From Solirubrobacteraceae bacterium (GTDB taxonomy: Bacteria; Actinomycetota; Thermoleophilia; Solirubrobacterales; Solirubrobacteraceae): a stretch of DNA of 64,000 nucleotides. The stretch covers positions 372,001 through 436,000 of the forward strand of contig JAUJOT010000002.1 of the NCBI GenBank assembly GCA_030447505.1, in the 5' to 3' direction. The translations under genes and the position numbers were made by a program. The notes under the pieces are model-generated. The model worked only from the letters and a program-made list of their open reading frames with translations. It was not told where the DNA came from and ran no database searches. Positions 3,325-7,633 of this stretch are shown in pieces. The first letter of the stretch is position 1. Each line of letters begins with the position of its first letter.

Positions 3325-3360
3325 CGCGCTGCAACTGCACGACCGGCAGGCCGATCGTCC

Positions 3361-5211
3361 TTGACGCAGGCCGCGCCGCCCTGTCTGCTAGGCCACGTGA
3401 AGCTCGAGTTCAGGAACCTCGGTCCGTGGATCTTCGGCACGGAGCAGCTCAAGCGCTTCACGCAGGACTCGCCGATCATGCCCGACGTCTGGCTGCAGTA
3501 CGGCCGCGATCCGGGCGACGGGATCGACCTGCTGCTCGAGCCGCACGCCGAGTCGACGACCGCCGAGCTTGCGCAAGCGGTGCTGCACGCCGACCACAGC
3601 GCCACCGACCCGGCGCCGCTCGAGCTCGCCTACAACGGCTCGCACGTCGCGGTGCGGCTGACCTTCGAGGAGCTGCTGCGCAGCGTGCTGCCGCTGTCGG
3701 AGTGGTGGCAGCAGCACCTGTGGCCGCCCGGCACCGGGTCCGTGGCCGACGTCCTGGCCGAGCGCCGCGAGGAGATCGTCGCCGGGCTGAAGGAGCCGAT
3801 GCGCGAGCAGGGCCGCCGCCCGGTCGACGCGCAGGAGCTGTCGGGCGCGCTGGTCTGGTTCGTCGGCTTGAGCGGGCGGATCGCCTGGGAGGCGGCGCAT
3901 CCCGACGACGAGCAGCCCGACGAGGAGCCGCCCCCGGGGCTCACCTACGACGGGCTCGTCGACCTCGCCGCCGACGCGCTCGGCGACCTGCAGCGCCTGC
4001 CGCCGCCCGGCCGGCCGCTGCTGTGGGCCGTCAACCGCAACCGCCCCGCGCGGCCCGCCCTCTGGCGTTCGCGCAACACCGTCAAGGCGGACGCTGCGAC
4101 GCTGCTGTTCGACCTGCGCTGCAACGACATCTGCTGGGCGATCGTCGACTCGGGCGTCGACGCGACGCACCCCGCGTTCAACGTGCGCAGCGCCGACGGC
4201 GTCCTGACCGCAGCGTCGCGGGTGCGCGCGACCTACGACTTCACGCGGCTGCGCAGGATCCTGGCGGGGAGCGACGCGGACCGCGACACGCTCGGCGACG
4301 CCGCCGAGGAGGAGCGCAGGGAGATCGAGAGCCGCCTGCGCAGCGGCCGCGCGATCGACTGGGCATTGCTCGCCGGACAGCTCAGGATCGAGCCGAAGGA
4401 CCACAAGGCCTGCGCGCCCAAGCACGAGCACGGCACGCACGTCGCGGGAATCCTCGCCGCCGACTGGAAGGCGACGGACTCCGCGCCGCCGCGCCGCAAC
4501 GACATCCGCGGCGTCTGCCCCGACATCGGGATCTACGACCTGCGCGTGTTCGACGACAGCGGCGCCGGCGACGAGTTCACGATCCTGGCCGCCCTGCAGT
4601 TCGTGCGCTGGCTCAACGCCGGCTCGCCCGTGCCGGTCATCCACGGCGTCAACCTCAGCCTCTCGCTCGACCACGAGGTCGGCTCGTACGCCTGCGGCCG
4701 CACCCCGGTCTGCGAGGAGTGCGAGCGCCTGATCGGCGCCGGCACCGTGGTCGTCGCCGCCGCCGGCAACGAGGGCCGTGCCTTCGTCTCGATGGCCTCG
4801 GGACCGATCGAGGGCTACCGCCAGATGTCGATCACCGACCCCGGCAACGCGAGCGGCGTCATCACCGTCGGGGCGACGCACCGCCACCAGCCGCACACCT
4901 ACGGCGTCTCGTACTTCTCGAGCCGCGGGCCGACCGGCGACGGGCGCTGCAAGCCCGATCTCGTCGCGCCGGGCGAGAAGATCACGGCGCCGGTGCCCGG
5001 CGGCGGGCTGAAGAGCCTCGACGGGACGAGCATGGCGGCGCCGCACGTCTCCGGCGCCGCCGCCCTGATCCTCGCCCGCCACCCCGAGCTGATCGGCCGG
5101 CCCGGCGAGATCAAGCGGGTGCTCTGCGCCACCGCGACCGACCTCGGCCGCGAGCGCTACTTCCAGGGCAGCGGCGTCGTCGACGCCCTGCGCGCGATCC
5201 AGTCGATCTGA
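3361..5211 (+). CDS. Intracellular subtilisin-like serine protease (S8) with N-terminal extension
   Basis: A 616-residue S8 peptidase. Its catalytic triad is visible: Asp263 in 'IVDSGVDATHP', His360 in 'HEHGTHVAGILA' and Ser557 in 'GTSMAAPHVSG', with the oxyanion Asn470 in 'AAAGNEG'. The first 250 residues form an uncharacterised domain with no signal peptide, lipobox or membrane segment, so the protein is probably cytoplasmic, which is unusual for subtilases. The TTG at 3361 gives the longest frame; a GTG at 3397 (before 'KLEFRNLG') is an equally good start. It is followed 12 bases later by an MBL-fold hydrolase and then a Vps62-like gene, forming a compact operon. Protease identity is firm; the target is unknown. 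Confidence 0.9.
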   Translation: MTQAAPPCLLGHVKLEFRNLGPWIFGTEQLKRFTQDSPIMPDVWLQYGRDPGDGIDLLLEPHAESTTAELAQAVLHADHSATDPAPLELAYNGSHVAVRLTFEELLRSVLPLSEWWQQHLWPPGTGSVADVLAERREEIVAGLKEPMREQGRRPVDAQELSGALVWFVGLSGRIAWEAAHPDDEQPDEEPPPGLTYDGLVDLAADALGDLQRLPPPGRPLLWAVNRNRPARPALWRSRNTVKADAATLLFDLRCNDICWAIVDSGVDATHPAFNVRSADGVLTAASRVRATYDFTRLRRILAGSDADRDTLGDAAEEERREIESRLRSGRAIDWALLAGQLRIEPKDHKACAPKHEHGTHVAGILAADWKATDSAPPRRNDIRGVCPDIGIYDLRVFDDSGAGDEFTILAALQFVRWLNAGSPVPVIHGVNLSLSLDHEVGSYACGRTPVCEECERLIGAGTVVVAAAGNEGRAFVSMASGPIEGYRQMSITDPGNASGVITVGATHRHQPHTYGVSYFSSRGPTGDGRCKPDLVAPGEKITAPVPGGGLKSLDGTSMAAPHVSGAAALILARHPELIGRPGEIKRVLCATATDLGRERYFQGSGVVDALRAIQSI

Positions 5212-5223
5212 GGGGGACGGACG

Positions 5224-6381
5224 ATGATCTTCTCGCTCGAGGCGCTGCAGGCGTTTCACGGCGACTCGCTGCTGCTGCACGCGGGCACGGCCGAAGAGCC
5301 ACTGCTCGTGCTGATCGACGGCGGCCCGTCGGGCACCTGGGAGACGAGCCTGCAGCCACGGCTGGAGGAGCTGCGCGCCGAGCGCGCGAGCGCTGAGGCC
5401 GCGCTGCGGATCGACCTCGCGATGGTCAGCCACATCGACTCCGACCATGTCGCCGGGATGGTCGATCTCGCCAACTCGCTCGTGACCGAGCAGGAGGATC
5501 GAAAGCCGCTGAGCTACGACGTCAGGACGCTCTGGCACAACTCGTTCGACGACGTCCTCGGCAACGATGCCGACGAGCTGCGCACGGCCGCGCTCGACGT
5601 GCTGTCGCAGCCGCTCGGCGACGCCGGCGCCGACGAGATCCGCGCTGCCGGCCTCGCGGTCGTCGCGAGCGTCGCCGAGGGCCGCGAGCTGCGCGACCAG
5701 GCGCACACGCTCGGCTGGGCCATCAACGAGCCCTTCGACGGGCCGGTCCTGCTGCCCGCCGACGGGGTGCGCTCGATCACGCTCGGCGACGTGAAGCTCA
5801 CCGTCGTCTGCCCCCACCAGGCCCAGCTCGACAAGCTGCACACGGCGTGGGACAAGTGGCTCGAGGAGCATCCGAAGGCCGTTGCCGGCGCCGTCCCGGC
5901 AGCGGTGAGCCGCGACAACTCGCCGTACAACCTCTCGAGCATCGTCGTGCTCGCCGAATGCGACGGCAAGAGCATGCTGCTGACCGGCGACGCGCGCGAC
6001 GACCACATCCTGACGGGGCTCGACGAGTCCGCGATCGCCAAGAACGCCAGGACGCACGTCGACATCCTCAAGCTCCCCCACCACGGCTCGATCCGCAACA
6101 TGACGGCGGCGTTCTTCGAGCGCGTCACCGCCGATCACTACGTCATCTCCGCCGACGGGCGCCATGGCAACCCGGAGACCGAGACGCTCGACCTGATCGC
6201 CGACAGCCGCTCGGACGACGACTTCACGATCCACCTGACCAATCGCGTCGGGACCGACACGCTGAAGAAGCGCCTCGACGCGTTCCTCGCCGAGAAGGAG
6301 GAATCGGGCCGGGCGTATGGCGTCAACTTCCGTGACGAGGACAGCCACTCGTTGCGGATCGACCTGCTGGAGGGCGGCTGA
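5224..6381 (+). CDS. ComEC-type metallo-beta-lactamase-fold hydrolase, stand-alone
   Basis: A 385-residue MBL-fold protein with the metal-binding motif 'SHIDSDHVAG' (His70, Asp72, Asp74, His75), a further ligand Asp256 in 'LLTGDARDD', and His286-His287 in 'LKLPHHGS'. The HxDxDH form and 'LPHHGS' are typical of the soluble domain of ComEC/Rec2 competence proteins, but no membrane channel part is present, so this is a free cytoplasmic enzyme. Family members hydrolyse phosphodiesters in nucleic acids or nucleotides, and nuclease activity is inferred. A strong Shine-Dalgarno (GAGGGGGA) precedes the ATG. It lies between the subtilase and the Vps62-like gene, with 12 and 1 bases of spacing. Confidence 0.88.
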   Translation: MIFSLEALQAFHGDSLLLHAGTAEEPLLVLIDGGPSGTWETSLQPRLEELRAERASAEAALRIDLAMVSHIDSDHVAGMVDLANSLVTEQEDRKPLSYDVRTLWHNSFDDVLGNDADELRTAALDVLSQPLGDAGADEIRAAGLAVVASVAEGRELRDQAHTLGWAINEPFDGPVLLPADGVRSITLGDVKLTVVCPHQAQLDKLHTAWDKWLEEHPKAVAGAVPAAVSRDNSPYNLSSIVVLAECDGKSMLLTGDARDDHILTGLDESAIAKNARTHVDILKLPHHGSIRNMTAAFFERVTADHYVISADGRHGNPETETLDLIADSRSDDDFTIHLTNRVGTDTLKKRLDAFLAEKEESGRAYGVNFRDEDSHSLRIDLLEGG

Positions 6382-6382
6382 C

Positions 6383-7633
6383 ATGGGCGAGCACGACGAT
6401 CTCCTGAGGCGCTTTCAGCCGGCGCTGCGCTATGACTCCAACGAGCAGTTCTTCGCCGACAGCGCCGCGCAGTACACCGACGCACCGGGCATCGAGCTGC
6501 GCCGGGCGGCGCAGAACGGCAGGCCCGGCGCCCTGATCGCAAGCGCCGTGCCGGCCGGCGACGAGCCCAGGCTCTCGCTCGCGTTCCTCCGCCCGCAGAC
6601 CTACGGCAGCGGCGAGAAGGTCGACAAGAGCGACGTCATCGGCGTGCGCGGCAGGGACTACCGCGCGCAGTACGTGAAGCTGCGCACGTCGCGGCCGGAC
6701 CTCAACAACCGGATGTACGGGCGCGCCGTCGATGCCAACGGGCGCCTGTGGCTGCAGTACTGGCTGTGGTACTTCTACAACGACTACCAGCTCGCGCTCG
6801 GCTTCGGCACGCACGAGGGCGACTGGGAGTCCATCCAGCTGCGGATGGGGATCGACGGCGACGTGCCCGACGTCGCGGTCTACGCGCAGCACCGCCACGG
6901 CGAGAAGCGCAGCTGGAAGGACGTCGAGAAGCTGCCGGGCAGCCCGGACGTGCCGGTCGCCTACATCGCCCGCGGCTCACACGCCGCGTACTTCGAGGCC
7001 GGCTACCACCAGACCGAGGCCTGGTACGACATCGCCGACGGCAGGCGTCCCGCGCCGAAGCTCGTGCTGGAGATCGTCGAGGACGCGAGCCATCCGTGGA
7101 TGCGCTGGCCCGGACGCTGGGGCGACACGGTGCCGCGCGACCACAGCGCCGACCTCGATCAGTCCGCGCCGAGGGGCCCGGGCACGAAGAAGCACTGGCG
7201 CGATCCCAACAGGCTGCTCGAGAGCGCCAAGCCGCCGATCCTGCGCGACCCGCCGCGCGCGCCCGACGTCGCGCTCACGCGCGACGAGGACGACAAGCTG
7301 CAGATCGCCTATGACTTCTCCGCCCGCAGCGTGCCGGCGCGCGCGCTCGTCGTGACGGTCAACTCGCGCAACGAGAAGGGCGTGCCGCCGACGACGCACA
7401 CCTTCGAGCAGGTTGCCGACGAGACGAAGGGGATGATCAGGACCGACATCCTGCTGCACCGCGAGCGCCACTACGACGTCTACGCGTCGACGGTCGCCGG
7501 CAACCCGCCGCAGCCCTCGGCCTCGCAGCTCACGGAGATCGAGGCGCTGCACGACGAGAAGGACCAGCCCTTCGGGCAGGAGGTCGCGCAGGTCGTCGGC
7601 AGGCTGTTCGCGACGATCCGCGGCGATCGCTGA
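6383..7633 (+). CDS. Vps62-like (DUF946-related) protein
   Basis: About 416 residues, starting at an ATG 1 base after the preceding stop. The middle carries the Vps62-family signatures 'LQYWLWYFYND', 'GTHEGDWESIQL', 'YAQHRHGEK', 'YIARGSHAAYF' and 'WPGRWGDT', shared with eukaryotic vacuolar-sorting-like DUF946 proteins and with bacterial relatives of unknown activity. No signal peptide or membrane helix is seen. The last 130 residues look like a separate beta-rich domain. The conserved acidic and His residues could bind metal, but no reaction is known. Its job here has to be read from the operon with the protease and MBL hydrolase. Confidence 0.75.
   Translation: MGEHDDLLRRFQPALRYDSNEQFFADSAAQYTDAPGIELRRAAQNGRPGALIASAVPAGDEPRLSLAFLRPQTYGSGEKVDKSDVIGVRGRDYRAQYVKLRTSRPDLNNRMYGRAVDANGRLWLQYWLWYFYNDYQLALGFGTHEGDWESIQLRMGIDGDVPDVAVYAQHRHGEKRSWKDVEKLPGSPDVPVAYIARGSHAAYFEAGYHQTEAWYDIADGRRPAPKLVLEIVEDASHPWMRWPGRWGDTVPRDHSADLDQSAPRGPGTKKHWRDPNRLLESAKPPILRDPPRAPDVALTRDEDDKLQIAYDFSARSVPARALVVTVNSRNEKGVPPTTHTFEQVADETKGMIRTDILLHRERHYDVYASTVAGNPPQPSASQLTEIEALHDEKDQPFGQEVAQVVGRLFATIRGDR

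Follow-up and report, generated by a model that had tools for sequence, protein, structure and literature searches.

Nucleases of the metallo-β-lactamase (MBL) type into which two disordered stretches are inserted are proenzymes that a partner protease activates (Tuck et al., 2025, PMC12799240). HamM is cut after Ile118 and Ile218 by a trypsin-like protease, while for the Canu system, which has a caspase partner, the nuclease was shown in its activated form and two conserved Gly sites proved necessary; experiments have identified relatives with this arrangement of loops as DNases (PMC12799240). Such gated pro-nucleases, with trypsin-like proteases or caspases, occur in AVAST, Hachiman and Canu defence, and MBL relatives also pair with 'other diverse families' of protease (PMC12799240). 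The words 'subtilisin', 'subtilase' and 'patatin' are absent from the main text of that paper, and our literature searches found no description of an S8-MBL or S8-MBL-patatin defence system. Here we describe a pair of this kind, an S8 (subtilisin-type) protease gene followed by a gene for a ComEC-like MBL hydrolase, in 64,000 nucleotides of a Solirubrobacteraceae bacterium (contig JAUJOT010000002.1, positions 372,001 to 436,000 of the forward strand; the whole stretch is called the window below). A preliminary description of this DNA had grouped the two genes with a Vps62-like gene behind them as a compact operon, possibly a conflict system. Our analysis points instead to a mobile two-gene immune cassette in which an S8 zymogen activates a gated MBL pro-nuclease. 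We hold this reading to be reasonably probable, and regard the pair as a subtilisin-based variant of the protease-gated MBL nuclease pairs.

The evidence for a conserved pair comes from an MBL alignment scanned against one genome per species from 84,980 bacterial and archaeal species. The 87 loci considered here are the best 80 of 398 candidates plus seven others, namely plasmid loci and the window. In 77 of the 87 the gene immediately upstream of MBL, on the same strand, is S8, a count that describes the S8-linked clade rather than the whole MBL family, since the query alignment was built from S8-adjacent loci and lower-ranking candidates were not kept. The loci come from at least nine phyla (Actinomycetota, Acidobacteriota, Gemmatimonadota, Verrucomicrobiota, Hydrogenedentota, Pseudomonadota, Planctomycetota, Myxococcota and Chloroflexota), and the pair is also found on plasmids, conjugative ones included. 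In a quick tree the S8-linked MBLs form one clade of 82 rows, of which 75 have this S8 (Shimodaira-Hasegawa-like approximate likelihood-ratio test, SH-aLRT, 95), and the distances among S8 proteins correlate with those among the MBLs (r 0.81, 54 pairs), a correlation to which common species history contributes. Starting from the protease, a profile of the S8 N-terminal region matched 2 of 296 genomes of the phylum, both with the MBL, and the five plasmid records matched by the N-terminal region of the window's S8 all contain the MBL too. Within the class the MBL clade is patchy (4 of 299 genomes); the MBL matches in viral contigs and phage records were weak and partial only. A mobile cassette of two genes, strongly conserved as a pair, is the best explanation of these sequence comparisons.

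A second S8-MBL pairing was noted at L005 (1-2010), L006 (1-1935), L007 (1333-3300) and L036 (5854-9353). Its S8 proteases give no prodomain match, their genes overlap the MBL gene by 4 bases, and its MBLs form a distinct clade (SH-aLRT 100); it may have arisen independently of the first. Further protease families stand beside this type of MBL nuclease: outside the main clade, MBL relatives were seen next to a C11 peptidase (PF03415; L113, 10001-12446 and downstream) or a CHAT protease (PF12770; L100, 3455-6515).

The catalytic triad of S8 (D251/H345/S545) is invariant among 42 relatives. The region in front of the catalytic domain, called unknown in the preliminary description, could be interpreted by structure prediction. 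An AlphaFold2 (AF2) model, folded from an S8 alignment without its plasmid rows, has a predicted local distance difference test score (pLDDT) of 76.9 and a predicted template modelling score of 0.84, and its best matches in a search of solved structures are unprocessed pro-subtilisins. ProN-Tk-SP (3afg) aligns over 363 residues (model 15-604, Z 31.3) and the pro-Tk-subtilisins over ~332 residues (model 41-604, Z ~30), and 3whi, another unprocessed pro-subtilisin, is also among the top matches; mature subtilisins align over ~250 residues, from residue ~228 onward. According to the DSSP secondary structure of the model, residues ~105-205 of the prodomain-like region form a helical insertion, which could have other folds, the structure-match list (VIA) for the S8 model consisting mostly of subtilases. 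As modelled, the N-terminal region looks like an inhibitory prodomain of the subtilisin type that carries a helical insertion, and because it aligns with unprocessed pro-subtilisins, S8 is probably a cytoplasmic zymogen. The earlier remark that S8 is without an export signal agrees with our hydropathy data: the highest 19-residue Kyte-Doolittle mean among S8, MBL and the Vps62-like protein is 1.09, the maximum within the first 40 residues of S8 is -0.35, and no hydrophobic export or membrane segment was seen in any of the three by this measure. One locus on a Rhizobium plasmid (L035, 6036-7989) encodes the prodomain of S8 and its catalytic domain in separate, overlapping open reading frames (ORFs), through either a frameshift or a natural split.

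The MBL protein was modelled with higher confidence (pLDDT 88.1), and its best structural match is the MBL domain of ComEC (9ic4, E 7e-13, Z 24.3). It matches the PADLOC LmuA model at 1.6e-51 and the NCBIfam Avs1a model at 2.1e-43 (148.5 bits, under the cut-off of 420). H70, D72, D74, H75, D256, H286, H287, G288 and S289 are invariant among 54 relatives and P285 is nearly so; the active sites of both enzymes are thus intact, as the preliminary description had judged. Only two stretches of the model are of low confidence, and both lie between the HxHxDH and PHHGS motifs (the candidate gating loops of Table 1), at nearly the same positions as the HamM cut sites 118 and 218. From the HxHxDH block to the next conserved strand there are ~156 residues in the MBL family versus ~67 in ComEC 9ic4. 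The model is thus one of a ComEC-nuclease fold with two predicted disordered insertions, and these loops may close the active site.

Taken together with the work on gated nucleases, these features suggest a mechanism. S8 would be made as a cytoplasmic zymogen with an inhibitory prodomain, and the MBL as a pro-nuclease with its active site closed by the two disordered loops. Once infection was sensed, S8 would be released or concentrated and would cut both loops, and the freed nuclease would destroy DNA, so that the infected cell would die or stop growing. The pair looks like a self-destruct switch against viruses, of the abortive-infection type. The likeliest sensor of infection would be the insertion-bearing prodomain of S8 or the product of an accessory gene, and the phospholipase-type gene found at some loci would presumably provide a second, membrane-attacking arm.

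A patatin-like phospholipase gene adjoins S8-MBL, or lies one gene from it, on either side, at no fewer than 36 of the 87 loci, and a Tle1-like lipase occurs in at least 6. With tblastn we found three extra patatins, which the gene caller had overlooked or which are encoded on the opposite strand, and two extra Tle1-like lipases. A phospholipase-type gene is added at 42 or more of the 87 loci, and the usual third partner of S8-MBL elsewhere is a lipase. The patatins retain the presumed catalytic dyad, with Ser (SVSGGS) in 31 of 32 and Asp (DGG) in 32 of 32. At 24 loci there was no same-strand neighbour within our limits; a few of these are among the loci with an extra tblastn lipase, and the remaining neighbourless loci show that the S8-MBL pair can stand alone. 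One may go further and picture an unnamed immune family, spread over at least the phyla listed above, in which a cytoplasmic subtilisin zymogen both opens a gated DNase and activates a patatin- or Tle1-like phospholipase, with the prodomain as the sensor. We regard this extended proposal as doubtful, albeit with an appreciable chance of being right; if true, a subtilisin zymogen would be the initiator of two executioners, and genome and membrane would be attacked together.

Defence genes are found near the pair elsewhere. TIR, cyclase, SIR2, FRG/pYEATS, caspase, TPR-S and CHAT genes each neighbour it at single loci, and at 1e-10 PADLOC matched about a dozen per 100 flanking proteins versus about four per 100 controls, the controls coming from one class and not being matched to the flanks by taxonomy. 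The enrichment is modest, and the defence-island clustering raised in the preliminary description is thus apparent, to a modest degree, at related loci and not evident in the window. As to a conflict-type role, the idea of a protease with a likely nuclease is upheld by the conserved pair and the matches to defence models, while the trio as the acting unit is not.

Several points weigh against the gated-nuclease interpretation. The surroundings of the pair in the window give only generic matches and look like housekeeping genes, and a dedicated sensor or nucleoside triphosphatase (NTPase) was not seen beside it. Neither the Ile that trypsin-like partners cut nor the Gly of the caspase type was seen as a conserved residue in the MBL loops, which would be expected of another protease type and also of loops that are never cut. 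In favour of cutting, an A-A-[FY] motif is conserved across the MBL family in loop 2 (A227 in 47 of 54), and both loops are enriched for the wider pattern A-[AS]-[LFY], with 25 of 43 versus 11.1 in shuffled loops and 21 of 43 versus 6.0, the observed count being reached in 0 of 1000 shuffles; against this, the pattern was picked after viewing the sequences, and the shuffles ignore kinship. We take A-[AS]-[LFY] as a lead towards a cut-site motif. Lastly, the phosphorylcholine esterase Pce is nearly tied with ComEC as a match to the MBL model (Z 23.6 vs 24.3).

This near-tie would suit a system in which the MBL is a Pce-like phosphodiesterase acting on lipid head groups, and S8, MBL and lipase together attack membranes rather than DNA, and so would the position of lipases as the commonest extra partner of the pair. 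Such a system seems quite improbable in view of the sequence profiles, which favour defence nucleases and ComEC over Pce (6e-11 for ComEC vs 4.6e-4 for Pce), and of the DNase activity of relatives with the same loop layout (PMC12799240). Nor does the pair have to be immune at all: a regulated intracellular protease and a phosphodiesterase might serve in stress or DNA turnover and spread by ordinary horizontal transfer. That the cassette of the source genus sits among housekeeping genes at a stable site, with identities within the genus (S8 81-82%, MBL 72-77%) similar to those of neighbouring genes, would agree with such a role, which we nevertheless rate as unlikely given the patchy MBL clade, its absence in two sister species, its occurrence on conjugative plasmids, its kinship with defence nucleases and the TIR, cyclase, SIR2, FRG, caspase and CHAT neighbours at several loci. 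A further alternative keeps the three genes of the window together as a true three-component system, the Vps62-like protein being either a dedicated sensor or a membrane-acting effector, which S8 would activate by cleavage and which would replace the lipase of other loci. The single promoter-like element and the short spacings described below suggest one transcript for S8, MBL and Vps62-like, the trio is retained in three of five comparable genomes of the genus, and, with lipases in third place at other loci, a membrane-acting third protein would fit. Against this stand the sister genomes and the related loci, on which we rejected the trio as a functional unit, as well as the G006-like type of the G001 copy and the different neighbours of other homologues in the class, and a three-component system is very unlikely, the least probable of the readings weighed here.

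The S8, MBL and Vps62-like ORFs are indeed all on the + strand with spacings of 12 and 1 base, just as first described. Directly 5' of S8 is a promoter-like element in which CTTGACG is invariant and a GT.TgCTtg block is conserved in a five-species alignment. It was not called by a sigma-70 consensus scan, and a consensus promoter and terminator scan gave no match. The comparison of sequences places the S8 start at GTG 3397, because three S8 orthologues begin at the equivalent GTG and are 604-605 residues long; the start at TTG 3361, given by the ORF finder and adopted in the preliminary description, was rejected, as this TTG is part of the conserved 'TTGAC' inside the promoter-like element. 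The cassette and the Vps62-like gene are probably co-transcribed in the source genus. In the window, G001 and G005, S8-MBL lies exactly between the promoter-like element and Vps62-like. The sister species G003 and G006 are both without S8-MBL; at the corresponding site they have Vps62-like behind this promoter-like element, in the order oxidoreductase, histidine phosphatase, Vps62-like, 3-methyladenine glycosylase. The distance from phosphatase to Vps62-like is 68 or 53 bases in these two genomes, and the glycosylase follows at once in G006 and ~5 kb on in G003, which has one additional gene between oxidoreductase and phosphatase. Vps62-like is beside S8-MBL at none of the 84 other loci examined, and no S8-MBL locus outside the genus has it, so the three genes are not a conserved trio, and the supposed role of Vps62-like as a sensor partner is not supported; elsewhere in the class its homologues lie among different genes. 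Because the same site and promoter-like element carry Vps62-like without S8-MBL in G003 and G006, we read this gene as the older resident, with the cassette sitting in front of it. A gain in the genus with one later loss fits this distribution as well as two losses do. The trio would thus have arisen locally, by insertion or loss at a single site where sister genomes split a mobile pair from a resident gene, and it illustrates that such a trio can mislead.

Vps62-like proteins of the genus fall into two types, window/G003/G005 and G001/G006, with 54-57% identity between types (window 6383-7633, L042 7378-8619, L159 7383-8636). The G001 protein is 71% identical to that of G006 and 54% to that of the window, unlike the neighbouring genes of G001, and this disagreement suggests allele replacement at the site. 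Of 14 members of the Vps62-like family, 11 match Pfam PF06101 (best 3.7e-8), while the window protein, with 18.9 bits, is under the gathering cut-off of 22.1. A profile of its homologues gave no match at E 10 among solved structures. A likeness of its HEGDWE motif to the GHRHDWE motif of the NPP1 family gained no support from this search, and we do not claim it. Homologues in the class adjoin, in either order, a gene whose product starts 'DLHAHYPMH' or similar, which makes a recurrent pair (L160 1002-3388, L161 7623-10033, L168 6904-9260).

The neighbours of the cassette within the window are phosphatase, Vps62-like, glycosylase and ABC transporter genes. Further along, at 41335-63441, is a long gene run resembling, by opening residues, glycosyltransferases, sugar-nucleotide enzymes and polysaccharide ABC transporters, probably a surface-polysaccharide cluster.

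Table 1. Positions of the S8-MBL cassette, its motifs and the adjoining features in the window.
Feature	Position	Strand	Basis or remark
Promoter-like element, CTTGACG - ~17 nt - GTCTGCTAGG	3360..3391	+	Directly 5' of S8; five-species alignment
S8 subtilisin-type protease, 604 aa, GTG start	3397..5211	+	PF00082, 1.1e-40
N-terminal prodomain-like region of S8, residues 1 to ~223	3397..4065	+	AF2 model vs solved structures
Catalytic Asp251 of S8, codon GAC	4147..4149	+	Invariant column
Catalytic His345 of S8 (HGTHVAG), codon CAC	4429..4431	+	Invariant column
Catalytic Ser545 of S8 (GTSMA), codon AGC	5029..5031	+	Invariant column
ComEC-like MBL hydrolase, 385 aa, proposed gated pro-nuclease	5224..6381	+	PF00753, 5e-5; AF2 model
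HIDSDH metal-binding motif of MBL, residues 70-75	5431..5448	+	H70, D72, D74, H75 invariant
Candidate gating loop 1 of MBL, residues 111-150, low-confidence	5554..5673	+	Extra vs ComEC; pLDDT 55-70
Candidate gating loop 2 of MBL, residues 211-240	5854..5943	+	pLDDT below 50 at 220-232
Asp256 of MBL (TGDA), presumed metal ligand	5989..5991	+	Invariant
PHHGS motif of MBL, residues 285-289	6076..6090	+	H286, H287, G288, S289 invariant
Vps62-like protein, 416 aa, putative resident gene of the site	6383..7633	+	Co-oriented with the cassette, outside the conserved unit

In 2025 trypsin-like proteases and caspases were found to activate nucleases in bacteria. A large subtilisin version that spans phyla, with a zymogen protease and a frequent lipase, would be a third independent wiring of the switch, and S8-MBL supplies the loci, candidate cut-site motifs and active-site residues with which it can be tested. 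Like IetAS (PADLOC IetS; NCBIfam NF042956), the pair would place an S8 protease in anti-phage defence, but the window S8 scores 16.6 against the IetS cut-off of 900 bits, and no adjacent AAA ATPase gene was seen. With the pro-subtilisins (Tk-SP, Tk-subtilisin, subtilisin E) it shares a prodomain and a catalytic domain in one fold; it differs from them in having no secretion signal, a helical insertion in the prodomain and a partner nuclease. In Canu (CanABC), too, the gene for a gated MBL nuclease is preceded by a protease gene that stands alone, whereas S8-MBL has an S8 protease in place of the caspase, no CanB-like subunit that we recognised and no Gly cut sites that we could see. The trypsin-like gated MBL systems comprise HamM-HamA (Hachiman), Avs1a-Avs1b (AVAST type 1), and the Lamassu and DRT pairs. 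Unlike in these, the protease of S8-MBL has its own prodomain, is encoded upstream of the nuclease and is unfused to a defence enzyme; there is no helicase, STAND or SMC partner, and conserved Ile cut sites were not seen. For AVAST type 1 in particular, its STAND NTPase was not found in the S8-MBL operon and the Avs1a cut-off was not reached. What S8-MBL and the trypsin-like pairs have in common is a ComEC-like MBL with two disordered insertions between HxHxDH and PHHGS, an adjacent co-evolving protease and a patchy spread.

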